Assembly (NCBI RefSeq): GCF_900111495.1
Contig: NZ_FOIU01000004.1
Span: 62,001 to 126,000 of the forward strand
Length of the DNA stretch: 64,000 bases
Reading direction: 5' to 3'
Source: Chryseobacterium wanjuense
GTDB taxonomy: Bacteria; Bacteroidota; Bacteroidia; Flavobacteriales; Weeksellaceae
Below the pieces are notes generated by a model. The model did not search any database. It saw only the letters and a list, made by a program, of their open reading frames with translations, and was not told the origin of the DNA. The position numbers and the translations under genes are program-made. Each line of letters starts with the position of its first letter. The first letter of the stretch is position 1. Of the stretch, positions 2,320 through 33,174 are shown piece by piece.

Positions 2320-3108
2320 TTATTTTATAACTTCCTGAAGATGAGAATTCTTTAACCTTTTTTGATAAATTGGTAAATATTTTTCAATCGGGATTTTTAC
2401 CGCTTCGAAATTACCAGCCAACACATAAGGTTCAATATTTTCTGAACTATAAACGAACTGAAGGAAATTATCAATTAAATTTTCAGGAATTTTGAATCTT
2501 GTAAAATAGTCTTTTCCTAAATAATTTTTAATCTGCGTGATTGAATTATTCATCCTTTCATATGCCACATACCGCTGTTTTTTCTTTCTTTCACCGGATA
2601 AAATATCATAGATACTTTCCAGGCTGAAGGTAAGTCCGCCATCGCGCAATCCTGCAACAGGAAGCTGTGGAGGGGTTCCGTCACCTTTCGGTTCAGGCAG
2701 GCCGATCACTTTTTTTATGGCAAGTCCTTTGTCTTCTTTTTTCAGGGAATTTACGTCGTATCTCAAATTTCCGGTCGGTTTGAATCTGCTGATTACCACC
2801 TCCTGAATTTCTCGGTAGGCTATTTTTAATTCAATTAAATTTTTAGGCCCCATCATCTGAGGCGTCAGTTTAATATCTTTCCTCTCTGTAACGATAGACG
2901 TAAAACGGATTACATCTCCCGGGTTTGCAGGGATGTTGAAATCACCGTTGTAATCGGTAAGGACGGTTTTTTGGGTAGTAAGATTGGTGACATATACCTG
3001 ATTAAGATACAATATCGAATTATCTCTAAGAAAAACTTCTCCAGAATAAATTTGAGCGTTAATTTTTGCCAGAAAAATCAACAGCAATAGGGTGAATAGC
3101 TTCTTCAT
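2320..3108 (-). CDS. Exported protein with carboxypeptidase-regulatory-like domain
   Basis: 262 residues from the ATG at 3108; an upstream in-frame TTG at 3138 is rejected because a -7 element (3118-3125) lies between them. The signal peptide MKKLFTLLLLIFLAKINAQ is followed at residues ~20-90 by a beta-sandwich-type segment (LNQVYVTNLTTQKTVLTDYNGDFNIPANPGD), typical of the carboxypeptidase D regulatory-like domain found in many Bacteroidetes envelope proteins. The remaining ~170 residues are charged and helical, with no recognised domain. Such proteins are common in flavobacteria and their role is unknown. The gene stands alone between two terminator or promoter regions. Confidence 0.8.
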   Translation of the reverse strand: MKKLFTLLLLIFLAKINAQIYSGEVFLRDNSILYLNQVYVTNLTTQKTVLTDYNGDFNIPANPGDVIRFTSIVTERKDIKLTPQMMGPKNLIELKIAYREIQEVVISRFKPTGNLRYDVNSLKKEDKGLAIKKVIGLPEPKGDGTPPQLPVAGLRDGGLTFSLESIYDILSGERKKKQRYVAYERMNNSITQIKNYLGKDYFTRFKIPENLIDNFLQFVYSSENIEPYVLAGNFEAVKIPIEKYLPIYQKRLKNSHLQEVIK

Positions 3109-3269: not shown

Positions 3270-6200
3270 TTAATAATTTTTTACCAAAAGCCAGCTTGTA
3301 TATTTCACCGTCGTGCTTCCTTTGAATTCTGTCCAGCTGATGAAATACCAATACGTTGCCGTATTCACGGGTCTTCCGGTGATTTTGCCGTCCCAGATGA
3401 ATCTGTTGGCCGAATTCCCTCTGAAAACCTCAGCTCCATATCTGTCGAAAATTCTGAATTCTACGTTATCGTTATCCATTAATGCAGAATAATCTATCGT
3501 ATCATTGTAGCCGTCTGAATTTGGCGTGATGGTATTAATTAAATTAATAATAACAAAAGGTCTGGTCACTTCTTCACATCTGTTGGAATCACGCACGTGA
3601 ACGATATGATTTCCTCTAGGAACATTCGTAAAGACATTGGTATCCTGCCAGTTTACACCATCCAAAGAATACTGATAAGGAGGAGTTCCGCCGCCAACAC
3701 CTACAGTAACGGTCGTTCCATTGATTTCAATAGTGGTAATGATCGGAAGAGGAGATTCTGTAACGGTTACATTTTGTCTGTATGTACATCCGTTTACAGT
3801 AAGATCTACCCAGTAACTTCCCACACCAACATTAGAAATAGAAGGAGTCGTTGCTCCTGTGCTCCATAAATAGCTGTCGAAGCCTGGTCCAGCGTCTAGT
3901 GTGGTTTTTGTTTTAGGACAAATAATTTTATCCACTAAAATATCAGATTTTTTAGGAATTTTAATGGTGATGGTAATAGACGCAACATTAGGACATTCTC
4001 CCGGTTTTTCAAATCGGATATAAATAGTCTGCACGCCCGTTAAGTTCATCGGGTTACCGATTGGAGCCAGATCATTTTGTGCATCCGCCAAGCTTCCGTG
4101 GAAGCTGAATGTCACAAGAGGATCTATGGTATACTGGGTCATATAAGGAAGTAAATCCATCAATTTAATACCATCCAAATCATCATCACACACTGTAACG
4201 GATAAAGTGGTTCTTATCAAAGGAATTTTTCCGGCAACGTTGAAGGTAAGTGGTTTTATCACAGGAGGACATCCGTCAGGAGAATCAACCCTGATGTAGA
4301 TCGTTGTCGTCGTCGTGTACGACCAGTTGTTGGGAAGTGTATTTGTATTTCCGGCATTGGCATCGGTTAAACTTGCGTAATACCTTACTCCTGTAAAATA
4401 AGCAGGGTTACTTAAAACAATCGCGGTAATATCCGATAAAGTAACATTCACGGTACCGTCTACGTTTTCATCACAAAATACTCCTGAATAGTTATCCGTT
4501 ACGACAGCATAAGGAAATAAATTAAGGGTAATTTCCGCAATATTTTTACAGCCGATGTTATTTTTTACAACGGCATATACTATCGTTCCATTGGCTGCGG
4601 TATATGTGGTCGGAGTAGGAATTGAAGTTCCCGGTGTTTCGTTTTGAGCGTTTATTAAACTTGTATAATAAGTAATCGTAACTGGCGAACTACCTGTCAC
4701 ATTGGCTGTTGTTAAGTTAAATACACCCTGTCCTGTCCCGTTAACATTACAGGCATTGATCGCAACATTGTTTACCGTTAAAACCTGAATATTAAGTGTT
4801 ACTGTCACCGTTTCACAATCGGGGAAGTTGACATCATTTCCACAGAATGTATAGGTAAAAGTATCAGTTGCAGGAGTCCCCGGATTGGTCGGAGTATACG
4901 TAATTACACCCGTTGTTGCATTTACGGTTGCTGTTCCTAATGTCGGTGGAGTAAGAATCGCCACGGTAGAAGGAACCGGTGTCTGAGTTGAATTTGTAAA
5001 CGCAGGAGTAATGGTTTTTGATGTACAGAAATCATACGTTGTCGAGGTTTCTTTTGTACAATTTAAAACTTTAAATTGCTCAGTTACCAGAGGAGCACAG
5101 CTTCCCATAGTTACAGAGCAGGTATAATATCCCGGTTGGGTAGGGGTAATAGAAGTGCCTGTCGCACCAGGAATAAGAGTTCCGTTGATATACCATTGAT
5201 AGGTATCGTAAATAATAGGATCGACGGTAAGAACAATTCCCGGAATACAATCTCCTCCGGATTTTAAAATCACCGGTTGAGTAGGGAATCCCGCAAAGAA
5301 TCCTCCGTAGCCGACTGCATCACTTCCCGCATTGATTCCCGCTGTAATTGCTTTTGAAGAAACCACAGTGATGGTTCCCACGGTATTCGGAATTCCGTAA
5401 GTTACCCAATTGTTGGTTCCTGTCATATTGAATGGTCCTGTTGTCGCCGGCGGAGTAACACCATTTACGGTAACAACAGCTCCTTTTTCTGTAATAAGAT
5501 TTAATTTGGTAGGAATATTTAAAATCCCACCCGGATTGGCATTAGAATGAACAAAATTTTCATCAATAAAACCAAGCTCATTAATTTGTTTCGGTAAATA
5601 ACAGTTAAGAGCCGGAATAAAATTGAAACCACCCGTTGCCACTTCATTTCCTACATTATTGGCTCCCGCAAGAACCTGATAGATGTAGGCATTTTTTGTC
5701 GTTCTAATATATAAATTATAATGACCGTTTCCCTGAAGCTGATATTTAGAATCGGGGATCATAAAATATTGCCCGGTATTGAGTACTGTTATAGGAGCAA
5801 GCTCATTGTTTACACGAACTTCAGTGTTGTCTTCTGTTGCAATAACCAAGGCGCCTTCCATATGTGAGCCAATATTTCCGTTACCTTTTACCAAAGCAAA
5901 TTCATTTCCCAGCCGCTCCACCGGAACCGCCTGATCCATGAGGATGTCTGAACTGGAAGAAAAGTTTCCGGCATATTGGCCGTTAAAGTTTCCGTTGGTG
6001 ACATTTACTGGTTTTGTGGCAACAATTTTAGCCCCGATAAAACCATCAGAGTTTCCCGAATTGATTCCATTTCCGTCGATGATATAAGATTGCCCTTTGT
6101 TTAAAGTAAAAGTTATGGTGGGAGTGGTAGCTCCGGTAGTTCCGTTTGAGAACTGTGTCGTAGGTTTATATCCTGAAATTGTAACGACGGTATTGTCTTC

Positions 6201-6674
6201 TGTTGCCAATACACTCGTCATAAAATTAAGAATCGAATTGGTGACGGAGATAGGCGCGCTGGCAGCATAAAATAATTTTCCGGTAGAAGGAATCCCTTTG
6301 GAAGTGATGATTTCAGCGTGATTAAAAACAGAAAATCTCAGATTGGCGTAGAAAGGAAATTCTGCTTTTACATACAATCCTTTTGTAATAGGAGTGAAAA
6401 GGTCTGCCTGAAGCGTTGTAATAATATAGTTTCGTAAGATATCAATTTTTTGAGGATTGCCTTTGCTGATGTTTACAGTGGCAATTAAGGTATTGTTATT
6501 ATAAATACTTACCGGAAACGGTGTCGTACGGTTAGTAGAAAGATATAATTTCTGATAAGGATTTGGGTTGCCTGTCCGGTCTACCATAGGCGCAAACCAG
6601 TGCTCCCTATCCAATTGAGCAAAAGTAGAGGTGAAAAAATAAAATATAAATAAAAAAGATAAAATTTTCTTCAT
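3270..6674 (-). CDS. T9SS type B surface protein with IgGFc-binding-like domain (paralog 1)
   Basis: 1134 residues. The signal peptide ends FAQ near residue 20. Residues ~90-460 resemble the IgGFc-binding N-terminal domain family (Pfam IgGFc_binding), with the hallmark MDQAVPVERLGNEFALVKG. An Ig-like module follows (~475-545, YQWYINGTLIPGA), then a cadherin-like module (~560-630, GTATVNATTGVITYTP). Three ~85-residue repeats occupy ~638-906. A Cys-containing module (TLDAGPGFDSYLWSTGATT) spans ~915-970, and a SprB-like repeat (GGTPPYQYSLDGVNWQ) spans ~975-1030. The last ~90 residues (ITPNSDGYND..., FDRYG, WDGK) are the gliding-motility-type T9SS type B sorting domain. Exported to the cell surface or medium; an adhesive role is inferred only. 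Its modules match paralog 5 best, but the first ~130 residues also resemble paralog 4. Confidence 0.9.
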   Translation of the reverse strand: MKKILSFLFIFYFFTSTFAQLDREHWFAPMVDRTGNPNPYQKLYLSTNRTTPFPVSIYNNNTLIATVNISKGNPQKIDILRNYIITTLQADLFTPITKGLYVKAEFPFYANLRFSVFNHAEIITSKGIPSTGKLFYAASAPISVTNSILNFMTSVLATEDNTVVTISGYKPTTQFSNGTTGATTPTITFTLNKGQSYIIDGNGINSGNSDGFIGAKIVATKPVNVTNGNFNGQYAGNFSSSSDILMDQAVPVERLGNEFALVKGNGNIGSHMEGALVIATEDNTEVRVNNELAPITVLNTGQYFMIPDSKYQLQGNGHYNLYIRTTKNAYIYQVLAGANNVGNEVATGGFNFIPALNCYLPKQINELGFIDENFVHSNANPGGILNIPTKLNLITEKGAVVTVNGVTPPATTGPFNMTGTNNWVTYGIPNTVGTITVVSSKAITAGINAGSDAVGYGGFFAGFPTQPVILKSGGDCIPGIVLTVDPIIYDTYQWYINGTLIPGATGTSITPTQPGYYTCSVTMGSCAPLVTEQFKVLNCTKETSTTYDFCTSKTITPAFTNSTQTPVPSTVAILTPPTLGTATVNATTGVITYTPTNPGTPATDTFTYTFCGNDVNFPDCETVTVTLNIQVLTVNNVAINACNVNGTGQGVFNLTTANVTGSSPVTITYYTSLINAQNETPGTSIPTPTTYTAANGTIVYAVVKNNIGCKNIAEITLNLFPYAVVTDNYSGVFCDENVDGTVNVTLSDITAIVLSNPAYFTGVRYYASLTDANAGNTNTLPNNWSYTTTTTIYIRVDSPDGCPPVIKPLTFNVAGKIPLIRTTLSVTVCDDDLDGIKLMDLLPYMTQYTIDPLVTFSFHGSLADAQNDLAPIGNPMNLTGVQTIYIRFEKPGECPNVASITITIKIPKKSDILVDKIICPKTKTTLDAGPGFDSYLWSTGATTPSISNVGVGSYWVDLTVNGCTYRQNVTVTESPLPIITTIEINGTTVTVGVGGGTPPYQYSLDGVNWQDTNVFTNVPRGNHIVHVRDSNRCEEVTRPFVIINLINTITPNSDGYNDTIDYSALMDNDNVEFRIFDRYGAEVFRGNSANRFIWDGKITGRPVNTATYWYFISWTEFKGSTTVKYTSWLLVKNY

Positions 6675-6693
6675 TCAGAAATTGGTTTTATCA

Positions 6694-6701
6694 CAAATTT
6701 A
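6694..6701 (-). promoter_or_regulatory. -7 element of paralog 1
   Basis: TAAATTTG on the minus strand, 20 bases before the start codon. One of five similarly placed elements in the array. Confidence 0.5.
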
Positions 6702-6737
6702 ATAATAAAAAGTATTAATAGCTTAAAAAATAAATAA

Positions 6738-6765
6738 AAAACCATGATTTTAAAATCATGGTTTT
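6738..6765 (-). terminator. Terminator of paralog 2
   Basis: Perfect palindrome with 14-base arms around ATTTTAAAAT (core CCATGATTTTAAAATCATGG), followed on the minus strand by T-rich sequence. It lies just downstream of the paralog 2 stop and closely resembles the hairpin after paralog 4. Confidence 0.7.
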
Positions 6766-6786
6766 CAAAGTTTTATTTAAAGGCTG

Positions 6787-9606
6787 TTATTCAAGATTTT
6801 TTACCAGGATCCAGCCGGAATATTTTATTTGAGTTTGGGCTTTATTAGGCTCTGTCCAGGTGATTTCGTACCAATACGTTGCCGTAGGAACTTTTTTCCC
6901 GTACATGGTTCCGTCCCATTTGTAGGCACTGAAGCGGTCGGCTTGGTAGACTTTATTTCCGTATCTGTCATAAATATTGAAGATCAGATTCTTTTTGTAT
7001 GCTAATTCAGAGTAATCGATATAATCGTTTTTGTTGTCTCCGTTTGGTGTAATTGCATTGAGAAGATTAGGGACAGTTACCGTTACATCGATCGGTTCGC
7101 AATTATAAAAATCTTTCACATAAATACTGTTTTCCCCTCTTGGAAGATTTCCGAAGAAATTAGAATCCTGCCACGTAGCACCATCAAGGGAATATTTATA
7201 TGGTTGAGTTCCTCCAATTACACTTACAGTGATGGTATTATTTTTAATTTCAAGATTTGAAATGACAGGTTGCTCTGCAGCAAGTACTTTTACATCCTGT
7301 CTTGTGAAGCATTCTCCTGTTTTTAGCTGTACCCAGTAAGCACCCACCGGAACGGTGATGGCCTGAGTTGTTTCTCCCGTACTCCAACGATAGCCGTCGA
7401 AACCTGGACCTGCATCCAGCGTAGCTTTATTTTCAATACAGATAATTTTATCAGATAAAACGGTAGATTTCACCGGTGGAAGTACTACAAGCGTAATCTG
7501 CGCGATGCTTGAACATCCGTTTGAGTTGGTTACATTCGCATACACTGTTGTATTTGAAGAAATATATGTTGAAGCATTTGAAATTACATTCGTTCCGTTG
7601 TTAAGATCTGCAAGCGTAGGATAGTACAAAATTGTGTATCCGGTTTGAGTTACAATCGGAGCTGTCTCAAGATTGAATGCCGCCATATTCGGGTTAGAAT
7701 CCAGATAGCAAGATTGTATGGTTACATTTTTCACGGTAGGATTTGGGTCTACTTTTAAGTGTAAAGTTACCTGTTCGCAGCCGACTCCTGTTGTCGGATT
7801 TGCGCAGAAATGATACACCATTAAGTCATTACCGATAAAATTTGTATTGGCTGTATAGGTGATGGTTCCTGTGGCAGCATCAATCGTTGCTGTACCATTA
7901 GTGGGAGCCGTATCAATTTGTACAGTACTTGGAATAAATGGAACGGTATGATTGGTAAATTTAGGAATGATCGTTTTCTGAGTTTCACAGACAATTAAAC
8001 TTTTTGTTACCTGCTCGTAGCAAGATTCTACTTCGTAGACCGGTGTGGTTGCAAAACAACCTCCCATTCCCACTTTTACGGTGTAATTTCCTGGCTGCAT
8101 CGGAGTGTATGTGTACGTTGTTGCTCCGGGAATAGGGTTTCCATTAAGATACCATTGATACGTTTCAAAGCTGTCGCCTGTTTCCAGAATAGCTCCCGGT
8201 ACACAATCTCCACTTTTACTGATGGCCGGAACCGAAGAGAATCCTGCAAAATATCCACCGTATCCTACAACACCACTTCCTCCTGCAATCCCTGCAGTTA
8301 CGGCTTTTGTTGAGATAATGGTGACATTTCCGGTTACGCCAGTAAGGGAATAAGATACCCAATCTGTGGTTCCTGTAACGTCGTAAGGTCCCTGAGCAGC
8401 AGTTGGTGTCACCCCGTTTACGGTTACGGCAGCTCCTTTTTCTGTTAAAATATTTAATTTAATATTATTTGCAGCCTGAGGAAGCCATTCGATCATCCCG
8501 ATTTCATCAATTTTTCTTGGTAACAGACAATTGAGCGGGGGTATATAATTAAAACCAATGGTAGCACTGGAAGTTGCCGTTCCCGCAAGAAGCTGGTAGA
8601 CATATGCATTTTTGGTAGTTCTTACATACATATTGTAATGCCCGCTTCCCTGATCGATATAGTTGACATTATTGGGTTCATTTACGCGATAATGCTGCCC
8701 TTCATTGATGGTGGCAACAGGAGCCGGGTTGTTATTGACATAGATTTCAGTATTATCTTCAGTCGCTACCAATAAAACATCTTCAGTTTTTGCAGCAATA
8801 TTTCCAAAACCTTTTACGATGACAAATTCTTTTCCTAATCTGTCCACAGGCACCGACTGATCCATGACAATATCTCCACCCGTTAAAGACGTACCGATAT
8901 TATATTCACCAAGGAAGTTTCCGTTTGTAACTGAAATCGGCTTGTCTGAAGTGATTTTAGACCCAATAAAACCTGTTGAATTTCCTGTAACGTTTCCTCT
9001 GCCTTCAACAATGTAAGACTGTCCTTTATTTAAAGTAATAGACATGCTTGGCGTTGATGTTGCTGTCACTCCGTTGGTAAAAACAACATTGGGAGAATAT
9101 CCTGAAATAGTCACCGTTGTATTATTTTCCGTGGCAAGAATTCCTGTTGTGAAATTCATACCCTGGGTAGGATTCGTGATAGGAGCAACGACGGCATAGA
9201 ATTTTGTACCGACTCCGGCTTTTCCTTTTGATGTTAAAATCTCACCATGCGCCGGAACAACAAATCTGAATGAAGCAAAAAATGGTTTTTCACCTTTCAG
9301 ATATAATCCTTTCGTGCCGACCGTAAATAGGTCTCCGGCCGTAGATCCTATCATATCTGCAGCAGTGATATTATAAGATTGAGGATTTCCTTTGCTGATC
9401 GCCACAGTTGCTATGATCACATTATTATTATAAATATCAACATTGAATGGTGTAGCAGAATCTGTGGAGAGATAAACCGCCTGTTTGGCTGTCGAAGAAA
9501 GATTAGCTGCTGAAAATGGAGCAAACCAATGTTCGGTATCCCGTTGTGCTGAAATAGCAATGAAAGTAAATAAAAATAAAACTAATGAGTAGAGTTGTTT
9601 TTTCAT
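6787..9606 (-). CDS. T9SS type B surface protein with IgGFc-binding-like domain (paralog 2)
   Basis: 939 residues. Signal peptide ending ISAQ, then QRDTEHWFAP. The IgGFc-binding-like domain (~90-455) carries MDQSVPVDRLGKEFVIVKG. Then come an Ig-like module (~464-530, YQWYLNGNPIPGA), a cadherin-like module (~539-622), a single ~85-residue repeat (~624-709, Cys near its start, YYPTLADLNNGTN in the middle), the TLDAGPGFDGYRWSTG module (~719-769), a SprB-like repeat (~782-832) and the type B sorting domain (~842-939, ITPNGDNKNDYIDYS). It is shorter than its flanking relatives only because it has one repeat instead of two or three. It has its own promoter element and terminator. Surface location follows from the sorting domain; ligand unknown. 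Confidence 0.9.
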   Translation of the reverse strand: MKKQLYSLVLFLFTFIAISAQRDTEHWFAPFSAANLSSTAKQAVYLSTDSATPFNVDIYNNNVIIATVAISKGNPQSYNITAADMIGSTAGDLFTVGTKGLYLKGEKPFFASFRFVVPAHGEILTSKGKAGVGTKFYAVVAPITNPTQGMNFTTGILATENNTTVTISGYSPNVVFTNGVTATSTPSMSITLNKGQSYIVEGRGNVTGNSTGFIGSKITSDKPISVTNGNFLGEYNIGTSLTGGDIVMDQSVPVDRLGKEFVIVKGFGNIAAKTEDVLLVATEDNTEIYVNNNPAPVATINEGQHYRVNEPNNVNYIDQGSGHYNMYVRTTKNAYVYQLLAGTATSSATIGFNYIPPLNCLLPRKIDEIGMIEWLPQAANNIKLNILTEKGAAVTVNGVTPTAAQGPYDVTGTTDWVSYSLTGVTGNVTIISTKAVTAGIAGGSGVVGYGGYFAGFSSVPAISKSGDCVPGAILETGDSFETYQWYLNGNPIPGATTYTYTPMQPGNYTVKVGMGGCFATTPVYEVESCYEQVTKSLIVCETQKTIIPKFTNHTVPFIPSTVQIDTAPTNGTATIDAATGTITYTANTNFIGNDLMVYHFCANPTTGVGCEQVTLHLKVDPNPTVKNVTIQSCYLDSNPNMAAFNLETAPIVTQTGYTILYYPTLADLNNGTNVISNASTYISSNTTVYANVTNSNGCSSIAQITLVVLPPVKSTVLSDKIICIENKATLDAGPGFDGYRWSTGETTQAITVPVGAYWVQLKTGECFTRQDVKVLAAEQPVISNLEIKNNTITVSVIGGTQPYKYSLDGATWQDSNFFGNLPRGENSIYVKDFYNCEPIDVTVTVPNLLNAITPNGDNKNDYIDYSELAYKKNLIFNIYDRYGNKVYQADRFSAYKWDGTMYGKKVPTATYWYEITWTEPNKAQTQIKYSGWILVKNLE

Positions 9607-9626
9607 ATTGTGGTGATTAGTTTTGA

Positions 9627-9634
9627 CAAAAATA
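9627..9634 (-). promoter_or_regulatory. -7 element of paralog 2
   Basis: TATTTTTG on the minus strand, 21 bases before the start codon. Confidence 0.5.
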
Positions 9635-9665
9635 GAATTTTATTTCTAATTAATTGGAAAAAGCA

Positions 9666-9699
9666 TAAAAAAAACACGGTTTTTAAGCCGTGTTTTTAA
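9666..9699 (-). terminator. Terminator of paralog 3
   Basis: Hairpin with arms AAAAACACGG and CCGTGTTTTT around a short loop, just downstream of the paralog 3 stop. On the minus strand the right arm runs into T-rich sequence. Confidence 0.7.
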
Positions 9700-9718
9700 T
9701 AATTTTAATAAAATTGTG

Positions 9719-12535
9719 TTATTCTCTGTTTTTTACCATAATCCATCCGGAGTATTTTATGGATGTCTTTTTGCTGTTGGGTTCGTTCCAGCTGAGGTCA
9801 AACCAATAGTTTCCGGTAGATACTTTTTTGCCGCCTACTGCGCCGTCCCACTTGTATCCGTTGGCTTTATTTCCTTCGTGCATTTTGGTTCCGTATCTGT
9901 CGTAAATATTGAAAACAAAATTCGGTTTGTAAGATAATTCTGAATAATCTAAAATATCGTTTACTCCGTCTCCATTTGGTGTAATCACATTGATAAGGTT
10001 TGGAACGGTAATTTCCACATCAATAGGATCACAGTTGTAATCATCTTTCACATAGACCTTACTGTTCCCTCTCGGAACATTGGTAAATACATTGCTGTTC
10101 TGCCAGTTGATATTATCCAGAGAGTATTGATAAGGTGCTGTTCCTCCGACTGTATTTACGGTAACGGTATTGTTAGAAATATCAATGCTTGAAATTACAG
10201 GCTGTTCGGAAGCATACACTTTTACAGTCTGTCTTGTGATACATTCTCCCGTTTTCAAATCAACCCAATAGGTTCCGACTCCTACATTGTTGATGGACTG
10301 TGTAGTTGCCCCGGTACTCCACGCATAAGCAGTAAAACCTGATCCGGCGTCTAATGTGGTCGTATCTTCAATACAGATAATTTTATCTTCCAACACATTA
10401 GAATAAACAGGCGGAAGAACAATAAGTGTTACTTCAGCCACTCTGTAACATCCGTTGGCGTTGCTTACTTTAATATAGACAACTCCGTTGGGTGCGATAT
10501 AATTGGTCGGGTTCAAAATCTCATTTGTTCCGTTCTGGGCATCTGTAGGAGATGGGTAGTATTGTTTGGTGATGCCCGTCTGACCTGTCACTGCAGCTAA
10601 TGTTAAATTAAATAATGCCGTTGCGGGATTAGATGGGATAAAACAAGATCTTAAAGTTGCATTCGTTACGACAGGACTTTCAGAAACAGTTAATGTTAAA
10701 GTTACCTGTTCGCAATCTGTAAAATCAGGATCGTTTCCGCAGAATTTGTAAACAATGGTATCTGTTCCGGTAAATCCGAAATTCGGTGTATATCCGATCA
10801 CACCGCTTGGATCGACAATGACTGTTCCATTAGTTGGTGGCGTTACAATGGTTACCGTACTTGGAACATACGTCTGAGAAGAGTTGGTAAACTCTGGAAT
10901 AATGGCTTTGTATCCTTCGCAGACAGTCAGTGCTTTTGTAGATTCATGAAGACATGTATACACTTTGTAAACAGGTGTAACTGCAGGAGGACAGGATCCT
11001 ACCGTGATTCTTACGGTATAATTTCCTGAAACAGCAGGGGTATACGTATTTGAATTGGCTCCCGGAATAGCAGTTCCGTTTAAATACCATTGATAAGTAT
11101 CATAGCTGTCATCCACTTCCAAAACAATTCCCGGAATACAATCTCCGGTCTGCTTGGCAATTAAAGGAATAGAAGAGAAGCCTGCAAAATATCCTCCATA
11201 CCCTGCAGAACTGTATCCGCCGTTGACTCCGGCAGTAACTGCTTTTGTAGAAGTAATGGTAACATTGCCGGTAATTCCGGTGATGGCATACGTTACCCAT
11301 TGTGTATTTCCAGTAAGCGGGTAGGGCCCTTGAGCTGCGGTTGGAGTAACTCCGTTTACAGTAACGGCGGCTCCTACTTCTGTTAAAATATTAAGCTTTA
11401 AAGTAATGGCGGAAGTAATATTCGGCATTACATTAATTCTTCCGATCTCATCGATTTTTCTCGGCAAGAAACAGTTCAATGGCGGAATATAATTAAATCC
11501 TCCGGTATTGTTTGCAGATCCTGCACCTACCAATTGATACAGGTAAACATTTTTCGTTGTTCTTACATACAGGTTGGAGTGTCCTCCTCCCTGGTCTTTA
11601 TATTCATTAGCGAGGATTCTGTAATATTCACCTTCATCTATTGTGGCAACAGGCGTAGTTCCGTTATTTAAATAAATATCCGTATTATTTTCTGTACCTA
11701 CGATGATTCCGCCCTCCATGTTGGCGGAACTTGTGGAGATGCTTTTCACCATGGCGAATTCATTTCCGAGACGATCCGTAGGAACCGACTGATCCATGAT
11801 TAAATCCGCACCGTCTGATGAAGTTGTGGTTGCATAAAATCCATTGGCATTACCATTCGTTACCGAAACGGGTTTGTTGGATTCTATTTTCGCCCCGATG
11901 AAACCGTCTCTGTTTACCGGAGTGGTTGTAGACAAGCCTGTAAGAATATAAGATTGCCCTTTGTTCAACGTAACGGTTAAGGTAAGAGGAGTCGGGGAGG
12001 GAACATTAACAAAAGAAATATTAGGATCATATCCGGAAACAGTCACAATCGTGTTGTCTTCAGTGGCTAAAATTCCTGTTGTAAAGTTTTTGTCTGTAGC
12101 GGGTACGGTCACCGGCGTCGCTGCAGCGTAGAATTTTGTACCGATACCGGCTTTCCCTTTGGAGGTGATGATCTCACCGTGCGAGCTTACCGCTGCTCTT
12201 AATGAAACGAAATAAGCCCGGTCTCCTTTGGTGTAAACCCCAAGATTGGTAGGCACTGCTGCACTTGATGCAGCCGTAGTTCTGATTAAATTTGCATTTA
12301 AAGCAAAAGTTTGTGGTGAGCCTTTACTGATGGTAACGGTTCCGATCACGGTATTGTTGTTGTAGATTTTTACCTCAAACGGAGTTGTTGCATCCGTAGA
12401 AAAGTAAAGAACGTGATTGTAGACACCGCCCGTAGAAACGTCATAGTAGGGGGCAAACCAATGGTCTGTGTCTCTTTGTGCAAAGAGTGTATTAAGTGCA
12501 CACAGCATTAATACAAAAGATAGAAATCTTTTCAT
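9719..12535 (-). CDS. T9SS type B surface protein with IgGFc-binding-like domain (paralog 3)
   Basis: 938 residues. Signal peptide ending LFAQ, then QRDTDHWFAPYYD. The IgGFc-binding-like domain (~90-455) has MDQSVPTDRLGNEFAMVK. The module order equals paralog 2: Ig-like (~462-525), cadherin-like (~543-615), one ~85-residue repeat (~618-702), LDAGSGFTAYAWSTG module (~712-765), SprB-like repeat (~778-832) and type B sorting domain (~842-938, ITPNGDGVNDILDYS). It differs from paralog 2 mainly in the N-terminal third, where it lacks the YIDQGSGHYN stretch and has a distinct segment around residues 75-110. Independent transcription is suggested by its own -7 element and hairpin. The role is probably surface binding or adhesion, inferred from architecture only. 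Confidence 0.9.
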   Translation of the reverse strand: MKRFLSFVLMLCALNTLFAQRDTDHWFAPYYDVSTGGVYNHVLYFSTDATTPFEVKIYNNNTVIGTVTISKGSPQTFALNANLIRTTAASSAAVPTNLGVYTKGDRAYFVSLRAAVSSHGEIITSKGKAGIGTKFYAAATPVTVPATDKNFTTGILATEDNTIVTVSGYDPNISFVNVPSPTPLTLTVTLNKGQSYILTGLSTTTPVNRDGFIGAKIESNKPVSVTNGNANGFYATTTSSDGADLIMDQSVPTDRLGNEFAMVKSISTSSANMEGGIIVGTENNTDIYLNNGTTPVATIDEGEYYRILANEYKDQGGGHSNLYVRTTKNVYLYQLVGAGSANNTGGFNYIPPLNCFLPRKIDEIGRINVMPNITSAITLKLNILTEVGAAVTVNGVTPTAAQGPYPLTGNTQWVTYAITGITGNVTITSTKAVTAGVNGGYSSAGYGGYFAGFSSIPLIAKQTGDCIPGIVLEVDDSYDTYQWYLNGTAIPGANSNTYTPAVSGNYTVRITVGSCPPAVTPVYKVYTCLHESTKALTVCEGYKAIIPEFTNSSQTYVPSTVTIVTPPTNGTVIVDPSGVIGYTPNFGFTGTDTIVYKFCGNDPDFTDCEQVTLTLTVSESPVVTNATLRSCFIPSNPATALFNLTLAAVTGQTGITKQYYPSPTDAQNGTNEILNPTNYIAPNGVVYIKVSNANGCYRVAEVTLIVLPPVYSNVLEDKIICIEDTTTLDAGSGFTAYAWSTGATTQSINNVGVGTYWVDLKTGECITRQTVKVYASEQPVISSIDISNNTVTVNTVGGTAPYQYSLDNINWQNSNVFTNVPRGNSKVYVKDDYNCDPIDVEITVPNLINVITPNGDGVNDILDYSELSYKPNFVFNIYDRYGTKMHEGNKANGYKWDGAVGGKKVSTGNYWFDLSWNEPNSKKTSIKYSGWIMVKNRE

Positions 12536-12557
12536 AAATATGGAATTAGGATTAATG

Positions 12558-12565
12558 CAAAAATA
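12558..12565 (-). promoter_or_regulatory. -7 element of paralog 3
   Basis: TATTTTTG on the minus strand, 23 bases before the start codon. Confidence 0.5.
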
Positions 12566-12624
12566 GGAGAATTTTATTTAATTATTAAAATACCCTTAAA
12601 AAAGAAGGGTTGGGACAAATAAAA

Positions 12625-12648
12625 AACCACGATTTTAAAATCGTGGTT
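12625..12648 (-). terminator. Terminator of paralog 4
   Basis: Perfect palindrome with 12-base arms (core CCACGATTTTAAAATCGTGG), followed on the minus strand by a T-run. It differs from the paralog 2 hairpin by one compensatory base pair. Confidence 0.7.
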
Positions 12649-12670
12649 CAAAATTTTTATGTTGAAAATT

Positions 12671-15600
12671 TTAGTCAATGTTTTTTACTAAAATCCATCC
12701 GGTGTACTTAATTGGAGTTTTTTCTTTGTTTGGTTCATTCCAATTGATGTGATACCAGTACGTTCCTGTTACTATTTTTTTGTCGTAATGTTTACCATCC
12801 CACTTATAGTTGTTGAACTTATCTCCTGTGAAGATTTTGTTCCCATATCTGTCATAGATTACGAAAGAAAGATTGTTTTTATAGGCTAATTCGCTGTAAT
12901 CGATGAAATCATTTTTATTATCCCCGTTTGGAGTAATTGCGTTGATCAGATTCGGTACGGTAACTTCTACAGAGATTGGTGTACAGTTGTAAGAATCTTT
13001 TACATAGAATATATGCTGTCCTCTTGTAAGTCCTGTGAATACATTAGAATCCTGCCAGTTTGTAGGCGCATCCACTGCATATTGATAAGGAGCTTTTCCA
13101 CCTGTTACATGCACTGTCACTGTATTGTTAGAAATTTCAAGTTCTTTAATGACTGGATCTTCAGCTTTTTTAACATTTACAAATTGCTTAACAAAACAAC
13201 CGTTGTCTTCAAGAATTACCCAATATGTTCCAACAGGTACTCCTGATAAAACCTGAGTTGTAGCTCCGGTGCTCCATTCGTAAGAAGCATAACCAGGTCC
13301 TGCATCAAGATTGGTTCTGCTGTCGATACAGATCGTTTTATCAACCAATAGAGGAGATCTCTTAGGAGGAATTACTTTTAAGATAATTTTGGCGATCGCA
13401 TAACATCCGTTGCTGTTGTATACTCTTACATAAGCCGCTCCGTCTCCTGAGATATGAGCCTGAGGATTCATGATCTCATTCGTTCCGTTGTTGGCATCCG
13501 TGAATGTAGGATAATATTTTTTAGTGATCGGCGTTACCGATGAAACGTTTGCAATTGTTAAATCAAACTTAGCTTTTGTTTCGTCCATTTCAAGGAAACA
13601 TTCGCTTAAAGTAGCTTCGTTTACCGTTGGTGTAGGAAGGAACTCTAAAGTGATTTTAGCATTTCCGGTACAGCCTTCGTTAGTCGTTACTTTTACATAT
13701 ACAAATCCTGCCGCAGAAAGATAATTGGTAGGGTTTGTAATCATATTGGTTCCTGCATTAAGATCTGCAAGAGTAGGATAGAATTTCTTCACTACAGGAT
13801 CATACAAAGTAACGATCGCTGTTGTAAGGTCAAAGAATCCTTTTCCGTCGTACTGACATGCTTTGATTGTAGCGTCATTTAAAACGAAAGGAACAACATT
13901 TAAATTTAATGTTACATGTTCACAGTCGATAAACTCAGGAGCATTGCCACAGAACTGATAAACAATCTGGTCTGCACCTAAATATCCAGCATTTGGAATA
14001 TAAGTGATTTGTCCTGTTGATGGGTTCAGTGTAGCGGTTCCGTGTGTAGGGTACGTAAGAATTGTTACTGTACTTGCTACCGGAGTCTGAGATGTATTGA
14101 ATGAGAATGTAGGTGTAATTACCTTGGTTGCACACGCATTTAATGTTGCTGTTGTATTTTTAACACAAGAGAATACTTTATAAATCGGTGTTGTAACAGG
14201 AGGACATGTTCCCATTGTTACTTTTACCGTGTAGTTCCCCGCCTGTGTAGGTGTATGAGTCGCTTGTGTAGCACCTGAGATAGCAACGCCATTCAGATAC
14301 CATTGATAGGTTTCAAAACTGTCGTCTACTTCCAGTACGATTCCCGGTACACAGTCTCCTGATTGTTTTGCAATAACAGGGATTGATGAGAATCCGGCAA
14401 AATATCCGCCATATCCTACCGCTCCACTACCTCCTGCAATACCTGCAGTAACTGCTTTTGTGGAGTTTACCGTAACGTTTCCGGCTAGCCCGGGAATGGA
14501 GTACGATACCCAAGCTGACGTACCCTGAACAGGATAAGGTCCTTGTGCTGCAGTCGGTGTGATGGGCGCTCCGCCATTAGTACTATACGTAACCGTAGAT
14601 CCGGTTTCTGTTAATATATTTAATTTAATATCCGGGCTCGCACTTCCGTTAAGATCATTAATGAAAGCGATTTCGTCAATTTTTCTTGGTAAGAAACAGT
14701 TCAAAGGTGGGATATAGTTGTACCCTAAAGTTGCAATACTAGTTGCAAGACCTGCAAGAAGCTGATAAACATATACATTTTTAGATGTTTTAATGTACAT
14801 GTTGTAATGTCCGTTACCTTGATCTATATAGTTGACGTTATTCGCCGGGTTTCCGTTATTCGGGCCATTTACTCTGTAGAACTGTCCTTCATTAAGGGTT
14901 GCTACCACAGGGCCCCCGTTGATCTGTATTTCTGTGTTGTTCTCCGTTGCAATGATCAATGCATCTTCCATTTGAGCGGTTACGTTTCCGTTTCCTTTTA
15001 CCAAAACGAATTCGTTTCCTAACCTGTCAACCGGTACAGACTGGTCCATGATAATATCAGAACTTCCACCTACAGCTCCCCAAGAGAATTGTCCGTTGAA
15101 GTTACCGTTGGTCAAAGAAACAGGTTTGTCAGATTCGATTTTGGCACCGATGAAACCTGATGAATTCGCAGTGATGTTTCCTCTTCCTTCAATGATGTAT
15201 GATTGTCCTTTGTTTAAAGTAAAAGACATGGAAGGAGTCGTTGCTCCGGTAGTTCCGTTGGAAAAAGTAACGCCGGCTGAATATCCTGAAACTGTAACAA
15301 CCGTATTGTCTTCAGTCGCCATGATACCTGCCATAAAGTTGTAGATACCACCACCTCCGATATCTGTAATAGGAGCGGCAGCTGCGTAGAATTTTTTACC
15401 GATACCGGCTTTTCCTTTAGATGTCAAAATCTCACCGTGGCTCGGAATTGAGAATCTAAGGTTGGCATAATAAGGTTTTGTACCTTTGGTGTAAAGTCCT
15501 TTTGTGATTGGTGTAAACAGATCTGCCTGTGATGAAGTAATGATAGTCGCCAGAGGGACTACAAAAACCTTAGGGTCTCCTTTACTGATTGTTACAGTAC

Positions 15601-15802
15601 CAATGACAGTATTATTATTGTAAATATCTACTGGAAATGGTGTTGTAGAATCAGTGGAAAGGTAGATAGCCTGGTTATTGGTACCTCCCGTTAAACCCGT
15701 TCTGTTCATCATTGGGGCAAACCAATGTTCTGTATCCCTTTGTGCAAAGAGAGTATTAATCGTCAAAAAAACTAATACTAAACTAAGTAGAAATCTTTTC
15801 AT
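12671..15802 (-). CDS. T9SS type B surface protein with IgGFc-binding-like domain (paralog 4)
   Basis: 1043 residues. Signal peptide ending LFAQ, then QRDTEHWFAPMMNRTG. The IgGFc-binding-like domain (~90-470) carries MDQSVPVDRLGNEFVLVKG. Ig-like module ~477-541, cadherin-like ~551-635, two ~85-residue repeats (~634-720 and ~721-807), LDAGPGYASYEWSTG module (~820-871), SprB-like repeat (~884-939) and type B sorting domain (~946-1043, ITPNGDNKNDFIDYS). The domain after residue ~130 is closest to paralog 2, while the first ~130 residues (RTG, SQADLFTPITKGLY, YANLRFS) resemble paralog 1, suggesting mosaic ancestry. It contains a small extra insertion (NGNPAN) relative to paralog 2. Own -7 element and own terminator. 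Confidence 0.9.
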   Translation of the reverse strand: MKRFLLSLVLVFLTINTLFAQRDTEHWFAPMMNRTGLTGGTNNQAIYLSTDSTTPFPVDIYNNNTVIGTVTISKGDPKVFVVPLATIITSSQADLFTPITKGLYTKGTKPYYANLRFSIPSHGEILTSKGKAGIGKKFYAAAAPITDIGGGGIYNFMAGIMATEDNTVVTVSGYSAGVTFSNGTTGATTPSMSFTLNKGQSYIIEGRGNITANSSGFIGAKIESDKPVSLTNGNFNGQFSWGAVGGSSDIIMDQSVPVDRLGNEFVLVKGNGNVTAQMEDALIIATENNTEIQINGGPVVATLNEGQFYRVNGPNNGNPANNVNYIDQGNGHYNMYIKTSKNVYVYQLLAGLATSIATLGYNYIPPLNCFLPRKIDEIAFINDLNGSASPDIKLNILTETGSTVTYSTNGGAPITPTAAQGPYPVQGTSAWVSYSIPGLAGNVTVNSTKAVTAGIAGGSGAVGYGGYFAGFSSIPVIAKQSGDCVPGIVLEVDDSFETYQWYLNGVAISGATQATHTPTQAGNYTVKVTMGTCPPVTTPIYKVFSCVKNTTATLNACATKVITPTFSFNTSQTPVASTVTILTYPTHGTATLNPSTGQITYIPNAGYLGADQIVYQFCGNAPEFIDCEHVTLNLNVVPFVLNDATIKACQYDGKGFFDLTTAIVTLYDPVVKKFYPTLADLNAGTNMITNPTNYLSAAGFVYVKVTTNEGCTGNAKITLEFLPTPTVNEATLSECFLEMDETKAKFDLTIANVSSVTPITKKYYPTFTDANNGTNEIMNPQAHISGDGAAYVRVYNSNGCYAIAKIILKVIPPKRSPLLVDKTICIDSRTNLDAGPGYASYEWSTGATTQVLSGVPVGTYWVILEDNGCFVKQFVNVKKAEDPVIKELEISNNTVTVHVTGGKAPYQYAVDAPTNWQDSNVFTGLTRGQHIFYVKDSYNCTPISVEVTVPNLINAITPNGDNKNDFIDYSELAYKNNLSFVIYDRYGNKIFTGDKFNNYKWDGKHYDKKIVTGTYWYHINWNEPNKEKTPIKYTGWILVKNID

Positions 15803-15825
15803 ATAGTGGGAAATTAGGATTTCTA

Positions 15826-15833
15826 CAAATTTA
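15826..15833 (-). promoter_or_regulatory. -7 element of paralog 4
   Basis: TAAATTTG on the minus strand, 24 bases before the start codon. No convincing terminator for paralog 5 was seen in the 79-base gap, so read-through into paralog 4 remains possible. Confidence 0.5.
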
Positions 15834-15881
15834 GAATAATATTTGAAATATTGTTAATAAAATGTAAAGAAAGTTATAAAT

Positions 15882-18800
15882 TTATTCACGATTTTTGATT
15901 AATACCCATCCTGAATAAGAAACCGGTAATTTTGTGTCCGGCTCAATCCATCTCAGTAAATACCAATAAGTTCCGGTTGAGAGTGGCCTTCCGTTTACCT
16001 TTCCGTCCCAGATATAATTTTTGTCTGCAGACCTGTAAACCAGCGCACCGTAACGATCGACAACTTCTATGGAAACATCCTGCTTAATTCTTAAATCCGA
16101 ATAGTTTAAAACATCATTAAGACCGTCTCCATTCGGAGTAATTGCATTAATTAAATTTAATATTAAAAATTCTTTCACAACAGGAGAGCATCCGTCGGCT
16201 CCCAGTACATAAGCAGTATGCATTCCTCTTGATAATCCTGTGAAAATATTCGAACTTTGATAATCGATTCCGTTCAGGGAATATTGATAAGGTGGTGTTC
16301 CTCCCGAAGCAAAAACAGTAGCATTATATCCTGAAACTTCAATTTTTGTAATTGTCGGAGGCTGTGCGGTCGTCACATTGACATATTGGCGATAGATACA
16401 GCCGTTAAATCCTAAATCTACATAGTAACTTCCTGCTCCCACTGTCACTGTCTGTGTAGTTGCTCCGGTACTCCAGGTATAAGAAGTAAATCCTGGCCCG
16501 GCGTCCAGAGTTACCAGTTCATTAGGACAGACAATCTGATCTTTCAGCCTGTCGGATTTTTTAGGTGTTTTTAAATTTAATGTTAAAATTCCGGTATTCG
16601 GACATTCTGTGGCACTTGTAAATCTGATATAAAATGTACTTGTAGAAGTGATGGTCTGAATTGGGGAAATCGCATTCGTTCCAGCCTGAGCATTAGCCAA
16701 AGTAGCATGGAATGTCAAAGTGACACCCGGATCTGTGGTAAATAAATTTTTATAATCATTAAGGTTTACACTTTCAGAGCCGCTGATGTCGTTGTCACAA
16801 ACATCGGATGTTGCAGTTCCTGTAAGCAAAGTTATTCTGTTTCCAATTTTAAAATTGATCTGTCCGAATGCAGCCGGGCAATTTCCGGTAAGAACATCCA
16901 CTCTTACATAGACGGTGGTGTTTGCTGTATACGTCCAGTTGGCGGGCAGTGTATTGGTGTTTCCGGCATTGGCATCGGTCTGATTTAAGTAATATCTTAC
17001 ATTAAAACTGGCAGAATTGGTTACAATTACCGGAGTAATATTCGAAAAATTAACATTTACAATACCATCAAAATTGTCATCGCAAAGTGTTGCATTAAAA
17101 TTATTAGTATTAATATTTGGTGACGGAATGGTTGTTAAAGTAATCTGAGCCGTTTTCGTACATCCGTATTGGGAAGTTACATTGGCATAAATAGTTCCTG
17201 CAGGTCCGTTATAGGTTGCCGGCGTGGCAATCGGAGTTCCCGATAAGGCAGAATTGGTATAATACTGAACTGTAGTTCCCGGATCCGGAGAAACGCTCAC
17301 AGAGGTAAGGTCAAATGTTCCGTTTCCACTGGCATCGGCGCATGATGTTAATGCTCCGTTGGTCGTTTGCAGGACGTCAATATTAATAATGATTTTAAAA
17401 TATTCAAAATCAGCAGGATTTCCGCTTCCTTCTACATAATAGATAAATGTATCTGTGGCATCAGCTGTCAGTCCCGGATTTGGGGTATAAGTAATTTCTC
17501 CTGTTGCAGAATTCACGGTTGCTGTTCCGGAAGTCGGTGCTGCAACAATGCTTGTATGAGAAGGAGTGATGGTTTGCGTAGAAGTTGTAAAAGCAGGCGA
17601 AATTACCTTTGTATTACAAGCTCCGATATTGTAAGTTGTCGTCGTAATCGGTGGACATAATGTGTAGTCATAACCAGTCGTAAGCTTCGATTCGCAGTTG
17701 TTTTTTGTAACTAAACAAGTGTACGTTCCTGCTCCGTATATTTCAGGATTGATAGAGTAGGTGGTAGCCCCTGAAATCGGACTTCCATTAAGATACCATT
17801 GATAGCCGTCATAGGTATTATCAACCTGTAGTAAAATCCCGGTATAGCAGTCGCCGGTTTTTGTGATCGCCGGAATGGATGAAAATCCTGCAAAATAACC
17901 GCCATATCCTACGGCTCCGCTTCCCGCTGCAATTCCTGCAGTTACGGATTTTGTAGAATTTACCGTAATTGTTCCGGTAACGTTCGGAACAGAATAAGTG
18001 ACCCAATTCGGATTCCCGTTCACCGGGTAAGGGCCGTTTGCAGCGGCAATTGCGTTTCCGTTTAAAGTAACTGTTGCTCCGGTTTGGGTGATGATGTTTA
18101 ATCTTGTGCTGTAATTTTGGCTTCCGATTCGGTTAATGAATCCGATTTCGTCAATTTTATTAGGCATAAAACAACTGAGTGGCGGGATAAAATTCATCCC
18201 TCCTGTCGGATATTCATTTCCTCCTGAAACTCCTGCTAAGAATTGGTAAACATAAATATTTTTAGTGGCGGAAATTCCCATATTATAATTATCAGTACCG
18301 CCCTGGTAAATATAATTACTGCTTGGAACCATATAATATTGTCCTGCATTCAAGGTAATTCCGGTACCTGTTCCGTTGATGGTAAGCTGTGTATTGTTTT
18401 CAGTGGCAATGATTAAAGCGGTTTCCATTTCAGAAAATACAGAACCGTTGCCTTTTACCACGACAAAATCTTTTCCCAATCTTTCGACAGGGACAGCCTG
18501 ATCCATCAAGACATCGTTGTTGGTGAAATTTAAATTGGTATAAATTCCGTTAAAATTACCGTTCGTCACAGAAATCGGTTTTGTAGCCTCGATTTTTGCT
18601 CCGACCAATCCATTAAGATTATAATTGGAATCGGTACTCACTGCATCCAGGATATAGGATTCTCCTTTATTTAACACAAAAGTTTTGGTTGGGCTTGAAG
18701 ATCCGTCTGAAAAAACAACATTCGGGTTATATCCCGAAACGACTACTGAGGTATTGTCTTCAGTTGCCGTAACTCCGATCATAGAATTGACATAAAAAGC

Positions 18801-19232
18801 GACTCCTGTCAACGGAGCCATTCCGGCGTAGAAAGTCGTACCGAGACCTGCCAATCCTTTAGAAGTAATAATTTCCGCATGATTTTGAAGCGAAAATCTG
18901 TAGTTGGCAAAAAACTTTTTTGGTCCTTTCACATACATTCCCATGGCATTGGGAGCGAAAAGATCGCTTGGATTATCCGTAATTAAAAAAGAATTTGGGA
19001 TACTAACCTGAGCGGGATTTCCTTTGCTTACCTGAACGGTTGTGAAAAGCACATTGCTATTATAGATCTGTACAGAAAACGGTGTGGTTTCGTTGGTAGA
19101 GAGGTATAAATACCCCTGAAGTCCGGTGGTTCCTGCTTTCGAAGACATGGGTGCAAACCAATGATCCGTATCGAGTTGTGCATTGCATAATAAACAAAGA
19201 AAAGTACAAATGGTTAGTAGAAGTTTTTTCAT
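15882..19232 (-). CDS. T9SS type B surface protein with IgGFc-binding-like domain (paralog 5)
   Basis: 1116 residues. Signal peptide ending CNAQ, then QLDTDHWFAPMSSK. IgGFc-binding-like domain (~90-450) with MDQAVPVERLGKDFVVVKG. Ig-like module (~461-514, slightly diverged), cadherin-like (~531-614), three ~85-residue repeats (~620-704, ~706-799, ~801-889), TLDAGPGFTSYTWSTG module (~897-954), SprB-like repeat (~957-1014) and type B sorting domain (~1022-1116, ITPNGDGLNDVLNYS). It shares QLD, NHAEIITSKG, QAVPVERLG and the second and third repeats (LPxNWxYT, CDxDxxG) with paralog 1 at the far end of the array. It is the first gene of the array in the direction of transcription and may be the founder, but that is inference. 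Confidence 0.9.
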   Translation of the reverse strand: MKKLLLTICTFLCLLCNAQLDTDHWFAPMSSKAGTTGLQGYLYLSTNETTPFSVQIYNSNVLFTTVQVSKGNPAQVSIPNSFLITDNPSDLFAPNAMGMYVKGPKKFFANYRFSLQNHAEIITSKGLAGLGTTFYAGMAPLTGVAFYVNSMIGVTATEDNTSVVVSGYNPNVVFSDGSSSPTKTFVLNKGESYILDAVSTDSNYNLNGLVGAKIEATKPISVTNGNFNGIYTNLNFTNNDVLMDQAVPVERLGKDFVVVKGNGSVFSEMETALIIATENNTQLTINGTGTGITLNAGQYYMVPSSNYIYQGGTDNYNMGISATKNIYVYQFLAGVSGGNEYPTGGMNFIPPLSCFMPNKIDEIGFINRIGSQNYSTRLNIITQTGATVTLNGNAIAAANGPYPVNGNPNWVTYSVPNVTGTITVNSTKSVTAGIAAGSGAVGYGGYFAGFSSIPAITKTGDCYTGILLQVDNTYDGYQWYLNGSPISGATTYSINPEIYGAGTYTCLVTKNNCESKLTTGYDYTLCPPITTTTYNIGACNTKVISPAFTTSTQTITPSHTSIVAAPTSGTATVNSATGEITYTPNPGLTADATDTFIYYVEGSGNPADFEYFKIIINIDVLQTTNGALTSCADASGNGTFDLTSVSVSPDPGTTVQYYTNSALSGTPIATPATYNGPAGTIYANVTSQYGCTKTAQITLTTIPSPNINTNNFNATLCDDNFDGIVNVNFSNITPVIVTNSASFNVRYYLNQTDANAGNTNTLPANWTYTANTTVYVRVDVLTGNCPAAFGQINFKIGNRITLLTGTATSDVCDNDISGSESVNLNDYKNLFTTDPGVTLTFHATLANAQAGTNAISPIQTITSTSTFYIRFTSATECPNTGILTLNLKTPKKSDRLKDQIVCPNELVTLDAGPGFTSYTWSTGATTQTVTVGAGSYYVDLGFNGCIYRQYVNVTTAQPPTITKIEVSGYNATVFASGGTPPYQYSLNGIDYQSSNIFTGLSRGMHTAYVLGADGCSPVVKEFLILNLINAITPNGDGLNDVLNYSDLRIKQDVSIEVVDRYGALVYRSADKNYIWDGKVNGRPLSTGTYWYLLRWIEPDTKLPVSYSGWVLIKNRE

Positions 19233-19250: not shown

Positions 19251-19258
19251 CAAATTTA
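19251..19258 (-). promoter_or_regulatory. -7 element of paralog 5
   Basis: TAAATTTG on the minus strand, 19 bases before the start codon. No good -33 element. Confidence 0.5.
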
Positions 19259-19370: not shown

Positions 19371-19404
19371 AAATAAAAAAATCCCGATGAAAAATCACCG
19401 GGAT
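19371..19404 (-). terminator. Terminator of tsf
   Basis: Ten-base arms ATCCCGATGA (19381-19390) and TCACCGGGAT (19395-19404), paired with one G-T wobble, then a T-rich tract on the minus strand (19371-19380). It separates tsf from the surface-protein array. Confidence 0.75.
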
Positions 19405-19426
19405 CAATATTTTTAATCTGAAAAGA

Positions 19427-28648: not shown

Positions 28649-28651
28649 CGC

Positions 28652-29839: not shown

Positions 29840-29842
29840 CCC

Positions 29843-30829: not shown

Positions 30830-30833
30830 TCAA

Positions 30834-31583: not shown

Positions 31584-31620
31584 AACGTTTTTATACAGTT
31601 TAGAAGTATAAAATATCTAT

Positions 31621-32385: not shown

Positions 32386-32391
32386 ATTACT

Positions 32392-33168: not shown

Positions 33169-33174
33169 TTGTGT

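Follow-up and report, generated by a model that had tools for sequence, protein, structure and literature searches.

A tandem array of putative type B surface proteins in Chryseobacterium and its apparently single PorP/SprF-family carrier

Cargo proteins of the type IX secretion system (T9SS) with a type B C-terminal domain (CTD) need a carrier of the PorP/SprF family, and dedicated carriers have been described for them (PMC12618676, PMC12635249, PMC9143113). In a stretch of 64,000 nucleotides from Chryseobacterium wanjuense (contig NZ_FOIU01000004.1, positions 62,001 to 126,000; hereafter the window), five genes for large type B proteins lie in tandem, and no carrier gene is found within or beside this array in the genome. 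The locus raises the question of how such a set of proteins could be displayed, and in what role.

On balance, and with moderate confidence, we read the locus as an array of separately transcribed surface-adhesin genes whose products would serve as fixed adhesive arms on one shared carrier. By what is known of T9SS biology, the proteins would leave through the SprA translocon, be taken up by the PorP/SprF carrier and be held at the outer membrane. All five would share the single full-length carrier with the other type B cargo of the genome. As this carrier lacks the Cys-x-Cys link to the GldK track, the proteins would presumably stay in place as fixed arms, with the head as the binding part, and the make-up of the surface would depend on which promoters are active and on how the cargoes compete for the one carrier.

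Array genes, promoters and lineages

Five minus-strand open reading frames occupy positions 3270-19232, with intergenic gaps of 79-135 bases and no further gene between them, and a check of the reading frames confirmed the coordinates and lengths given in a first-pass annotation of the window (Table 1). That annotation had proposed a same-strand set of common architecture, from an IgGFc-binding head to a T9SS type B CTD, and profile searches bear this out. All five proteins scored above the Pfam cut-off of 25.6 for PF17517 (IgGFc_binding; 123-138 bits, E 6.3e-40 to 1.8e-35), above the Pfam cut-off for PF13585 (CHU_C) and, at the extreme C-terminus, above the NCBIfam cut-off for TIGR04131, the T9SS type B sorting domain. 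Each begins with a hydrophobic stretch (judged by eye), perhaps a Sec signal peptide, followed by a Gln that is invariant across an alignment of 56 sequences; then come the head, comprising the PF17517 domain and the ~110 residues preceding it, a chain of Ig-like domains and the type B CTD. Ig, Big_9 and SprB-repeat models gave weak or borderline matches in some of the stalks. Pairwise identity among the five proteins is 47-68% in the heads and 45-72% in the CTDs, and relatives among the best 120 of 1537 database matches already bear the names T9SS type B, gliding motility-associated-like or IgGFc-binding. The array is not a chance arrangement, since PF17517 was detected in 59/59 Chryseobacterium genomes (2-9 matches each) and in none of 14 control genomes in the same search.

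A TAnnTTTG box, which we take to be the known -7 element of Bacteroidota, lies 26-31 bases ahead of the start codon of each of the five genes. Genus-wide, 207 of 217 array genes have the box at -20 to -45, whereas ~6 would be expected from their upstream sequences under a first-order Markov model; among the ten genes without it are some whose starts were apparently called wrongly. As nearly every array gene has its own box, the array does not look like one operon and, on the evidence of this consensus, is best read as a series of separate transcription units. Terminator-like hairpins follow non-first genes in 96 of 101 gaps but first genes in only 19 of 59 (two gaps of at least 600 bases left out, and no shuffled control for this count), and there is perhaps read-through after the first gene. 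A separate scan of the region gave 25 terminator-like sites against 13.7 expected, including those after tsf and after genes 4, 3 and 2.

The lineages of the array genes were followed in FastTree trees, with local support only, of heads (217 from the 221 genes of 59 arrays, four genes shorter than 850 residues being left out) and of tails (last 230 residues). In the head tree, all 59 last-position genes fall in one clade (LAST), and a second clade (FIRST) holds 42 of the 58 first-position genes and three others. Of the 113 heads in the third group, 97 belong to middle genes and 16 to the first-position genes outside FIRST. FIRST (45) and LAST (59) each form one clade again in the tail tree, whereas the three head types of the middle genes require 16, 13 and 2 changes on it, of which 9, 7 and 1 are forced by well-supported branches. 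The end genes thus keep head and tail together, whereas heads and tails are exchanged among the middle genes. On these trees, the last gene is a fixed orthologue throughout the genus, and a FIRST-type gene opens most arrays.

Type B cargo and the carrier

The genome of the window encodes 15 type B CTDs above cut-off, the SprA translocon and one full-length PorP/SprF carrier, which is encoded on a different contig and flanked there by an RluA-family gene and hemW. Orphan type B cargo is known, so the absence of an adjoining carrier does not exclude type B membership and, since the 15 type B proteins have a single full-length carrier between them, the five array proteins should share it with other cargo. 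TIGR03519, the carrier family, scores above cut-off exactly once in 58 of the 59 Chryseobacterium genomes (in G001 the single match is cut by a contig end), and six Chryseobacterium genomes have 9-16 type B CTDs each. The remaining genome, G057, has four carrier matches; as the only genome of the genus with extra carriers, it offers a natural test case for carrier sharing.

In a wider set of 80 genomes of the family, one carrier match above cut-off was found in 61, two in seven and none in 12. Carrier and type B cargo occur together in 68 of these genomes and are both missing from 12, with no genome having one alone, and all 39 PF17517-positive genomes have a carrier. SprA is also missing from seven of the 12; the other five, from five genera, keep SprA with neither type B cargo nor carrier above cut-off (G060, G072, G082, G085 and G094). 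Among the 73 SprA-positive genomes, the agreement between cargo and carrier would arise by chance with a probability of ~7e-8 if independent, the genomes themselves not being independent. Outside this set, 13 of 13 genomes of a second family, taken to be Flavobacteriaceae, have 2-14 carrier matches.

The 15 CTDs of the window's genome share 35-93% identity (mean 52%), and all end in GW-x-x-x-KN except that of gene 1, which has SW. Those of genes 2-4 are 56-72% identical to the CTDs of five type B genes on another contig (C2), versus 46-51% to those of genes 1 and 5. Most type B CTDs of Flavobacterium johnsoniae share 20-30%; three cargoes without an adjoining carrier, Fjoh_1123, Fjoh_1720 and Fjoh_4934, have CTDs more than 44% alike and share the carrier Fjoh_1677 (PMC12618676). 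The array resembles this trio, but the trio stands amid many carriers, whereas the carrier here is the only full-length one. Compared with F. johnsoniae SprB/SprF and Fjoh_3952/Fjoh_3951, the CTD family (TIGR04131), the carrier family (TIGR03519) and the SprA gene are the same; unlike those dedicated carriers, none lies beside the cargo here. F. johnsoniae has 12 cargoes and 10 PorP-like proteins (PMC12618676, PMC9143113), against 15 cargoes and one full-length carrier in C. wanjuense. Likewise, PorP of Porphyromonas gingivalis, with PG1035 (and PorE), is a single PorP-like carrier that holds type B cargo at the surface (PMC9143113), although it serves one cargo only and the Chryseobacterium carrier would serve many.

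The components are of known kinds, and what seems new is a genus-wide array with separate promoters, a recombining middle and apparently one carrier. We found no many-cargo, one-carrier array described in the open-licence literature searched. The idea of a candidate unrecognised system, raised in the first-pass annotation, is partly supported: it may apply to the locus, its promoters, its recombining middle and its shared carrier, for which the same literature gave no description, and not to the protein families, which databases already name.

Display and function

The other ten type B genes of the genome are mostly grouped, with five on C2, three on C1 and two singles. PF03388, a legume-type lectin domain, scored above cut-off in three of the nine proteins scanned (one C1 single left out), and domains of this sort support an adhesin-like role for the class; the PF17517 heads may, by extension, be adhesive. 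The five genes on C2 (L155:2339-16111), three of them with legume-type lectin domains, have dnaB and an RNase H gene among them. The type B proteins of a tandem trio on C1 (L156:4416-13000) carry Ig_7 domains and, in one case, a PKD match as well.

In F. johnsoniae, gliding depends on the Cys-x-Cys tail of SprF, which forms a bond with GldK (PMC12635249). Such a tail is present in 9 of the 10 best-matching carriers of the second family, and no C-tail Cys was found in any of the 11 Weeksellaceae carriers examined (9 distinct). Fixed adhesins fit a carrier without this tail better than gliding adhesins do.

Several points weigh against fixed adhesins that are separately transcribed and share a carrier. 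Sharing is read from counts and CTD likeness and not from a complex, the genome counts are phylogenetically non-independent, and the searches could have overlooked a highly divergent carrier; PF11751 has a second match in the window's genome (28 bits, two internal stops), which lies above the cut-off of that family and below that of TIGR03519. Sixteen of 58 arrays start with a middle-type gene. The TAnnTTTG box also precedes 14 of 43 other window genes, which makes it a normal promoter and not a special signal, and sigma-70-type promoters, not the kind used in this phylum, were no more frequent in a scan than expected (56 versus 54.9). The adhesive role is putative: an AlphaFold2 model of the gene 2 protein (predicted local distance difference test, pLDDT, 86.6; predicted template modelling score, pTM, 0.60; head alone pLDDT 88.1, pTM 0.90) gave no convincing whole-head match in structure comparison. 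Finally, a tree of 62 carriers sets the Weeksellaceae clade beside the Cys-x-Cys clade and not with the other 42 carriers (support 95 for this joining, with a long branch and a midpoint root); the clade so joined contains all nine Cys-x-Cys carriers and two with other Cys tails. This places the carrier with SprF, although it lacks the one track link known.

This grouping of the lone carrier would also suit mobile gliding adhesins, coupled by the shared carrier to the gliding track through a link other than Cys-x-Cys, a reading we regard as unlikely. C. gleum glides, and its authors report no SprB homologue in Chryseobacterium (PMC11004935); the longest frame among the 15 type B proteins has 1307 residues, none being SprB-sized, although no search was aimed at SprB or gliding genes. 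SprB-repeat models match the products of genes 2 and 3, in each case below cut-off, and for one of the F. johnsoniae orphans that share a carrier, movement of the CTD was seen in 3% of cells (PMC12618676). Against this, the tail cysteine missing from the 11 carriers is required for gliding in F. johnsoniae (PMC12635249), the array proteins are short next to SprB with its 6497 residues (PMC9950754), and a survey reported SprB homologues in all its gliding genomes (PMC7440613). Fixed display is thus favoured, though not proven.

A structural coat or matrix, in which the Ig-like chains would be packed over the outer membrane instead of acting as receptors, is less probable again. Its supports are the all-beta chains, the presence of 2-9 copies in all 59 genomes of the genus, and the appearance of two S-layer proteins, 4aq1 (rank 31) and 6hhu (rank 42), in the whole-model Foldseek list; these S-layer matches, however, have template modelling scores (TM-scores) of at most 0.16 and reflect common Ig chains, and a single carrier gene would be expected to limit a dense coat. 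LAST orthologues, moreover, are 75-88% conserved per 50 residues in the head half versus 61-79% in the remainder, as expected of a working head, although FIRST orthologues show no such difference (65-84% versus 61-83%).

The binding of host glycoproteins or mucus that the first-pass annotation had entertained, or of immunoglobulin, draws on the PF17517 name, which we take to be linked to animal FCGBP, and "IgG-binding" is a family name, not evidence. Host-directed binders are very improbable: the genes occur genus-wide, including in strains whose names suggest leaf, soil, tree or meat, a sequence search of solved structures with the gene 2 protein found no relative, and Fc-receptor matches cover ~35 residues of a stalk domain (E ~0.1), outside the head. 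The grappling-hook protein GhpA of Aureispira is similar in its chain of Ig-like domains, with TM-scores of at most 0.41 over the whole model, but the likeness does not reach the head, and GhpA, at more than 5000 residues by its fragment titles, is unlike the array proteins. We found no tested function of a bacterial PF17517 member in the open-licence literature; a Teredinibacter IgGFc binding protein listed in a secretome table from cellulose culture (PMC12055684) is a lead only. Least credible of all is that the genes were recently and neutrally amplified and share no role. Copy number does vary (2-5 in the counted loci), and short or broken members occur (L013, L023 and L040), but the duplication that gave rise to the last gene is old, with 59/59 last genes in one clade, and the copies retain the promoter box, those of the window also head and CTD.

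It is tempting to extend the reading of fixed adhesins on a shared carrier to the family as a whole, which we do tentatively. In Weeksellaceae, and Chryseobacterium above all, a hub carrier without track-linking cysteines may have replaced the one-cargo-one-carrier arrangement and may serve up to 16 exchangeable arms, with the tsf-trmB array as their core. The arms would comprise IgGFc-like heads, legume-type lectins and Ig/PKD chains under the common CTD signature GW-x-x-x-KN; fixed end arms would flank a middle set that swaps heads and tails, each with its own promoter, and the surface would be programmed by competition for the port. The notion that each type IX cargo has a carrier of its own thereby becomes testable in a new way, since with 9-16 cargoes apparently on a single carrier, deletion of one gene should strip the type B surface. 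PF17517 proteins of the genus are also given a setting and a probable way of being displayed, and one can ask what holds the adhesins in a gliding genus reported to be without SprB.

Distribution and surroundings of the array

Relatives of array gene 4 (best 80 of 111 matches) gave 78 loci in named genomes, nearly all Chryseobacterium, in line with the occurrence in Weeksellaceae expected from the first-pass annotation; the closest of them is in Chryseobacterium sp. RU37D (91%). The order tsf, array, BamP-like gene is found in 58 of the 78 loci. For these and the window, with both markers in reach and only head-bearing matches between them, members were identified by head matches and fragments counted as members, which gave two members in 2 arrays, three in 18, four in 32 and five in 7. 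The other 20 loci were left out because the flank lay beyond the fetched piece, the gene was elsewhere or the order differed. In RU37D itself (L001:3455-13776), the last gene and its BamP-like neighbour are inverted and lie on the other side of tsf. One locus (L009) has six members with the downstream marker out of reach, and in a Bergeyella locus (L043) tsf is accompanied by two members but no BamP-like marker. Neither marker is in reach at loci including L024-L026, L028-L031, L065 and L067, which are probably further copies elsewhere. PF17517 was detected in 39 of 80 genomes of the family sample (17 of 28 genera) and in 61 of 149 of the class sample, 60 of these above cut-off.

A sixth PF17517 gene of the window's own genome (L159:1775-3781, on C4) encodes 668 residues with no CHU_C match, and the small gene after it has, by eye, a similar C-terminal end.

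Table 1. Coordinates of array genes, promoter-like and terminator-like elements and flanking genes in the window
Feature	Position	Strand	Remarks
Array gene 1, LAST orthologue	3270..6674	-	1134 aa; PF17517 130-445, Ig-like stalk, type B CTD 1044-1130
Array gene 2, middle type	6787..9606	-	939 aa; PF17517 132-442, stalk, type B CTD 848-935
Array gene 3, middle type	9719..12535	-	938 aa; PF17517 131-439, type B CTD 847-934
Array gene 4, middle type, longer stalk	12671..15802	-	1043 aa; PF17517 134-457, type B CTD 952-1039
Array gene 5, FIRST orthologue, adjoining tsf	15882..19232	-	1116 aa; PF17517 129-433, type B CTD 1026-1112
Promoter-like TAAATTTG	6694..6701	-	begins 27 bases before gene 1
Promoter-like TATTTTTG	9627..9634	-	begins 28 bases before gene 2
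Promoter-like TATTTTTG	12558..12565	-	begins 30 bases before gene 3
Promoter-like TAAATTTG	15826..15833	-	begins 31 bases before gene 4
Promoter-like TAAATTTG	19251..19258	-	begins 26 bases before gene 5
Terminator-like hairpin with T run, after gene 2	6737..6766	-	terminator scan
Terminator-like hairpin, after gene 3	9670..9697	-	terminator scan
Terminator-like hairpin, after gene 4	12624..12649	-	terminator scan
Terminator-like hairpin, after tsf and before gene 5	19380..19405	-	terminator scan
tsf (elongation factor Ts), conserved upstream neighbour, outside array	19427..20251	-	annotation and synteny
Conserved downstream neighbour, BamP-like	2320..3108	-	262 aa; profile match and synteny

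The BamP match of the downstream neighbour is confined to its N-terminal 112 residues and scores 40 bits against a cut-off of 230. Two DUF6759 genes, at 1306-2094 and 20399-21106, bracket the array facing apart and recur in many related loci. Further along the window, two genes at 24248-26060 are glycosyltransferase-like by eye, and a run of same-strand genes occupies 27401-34419.

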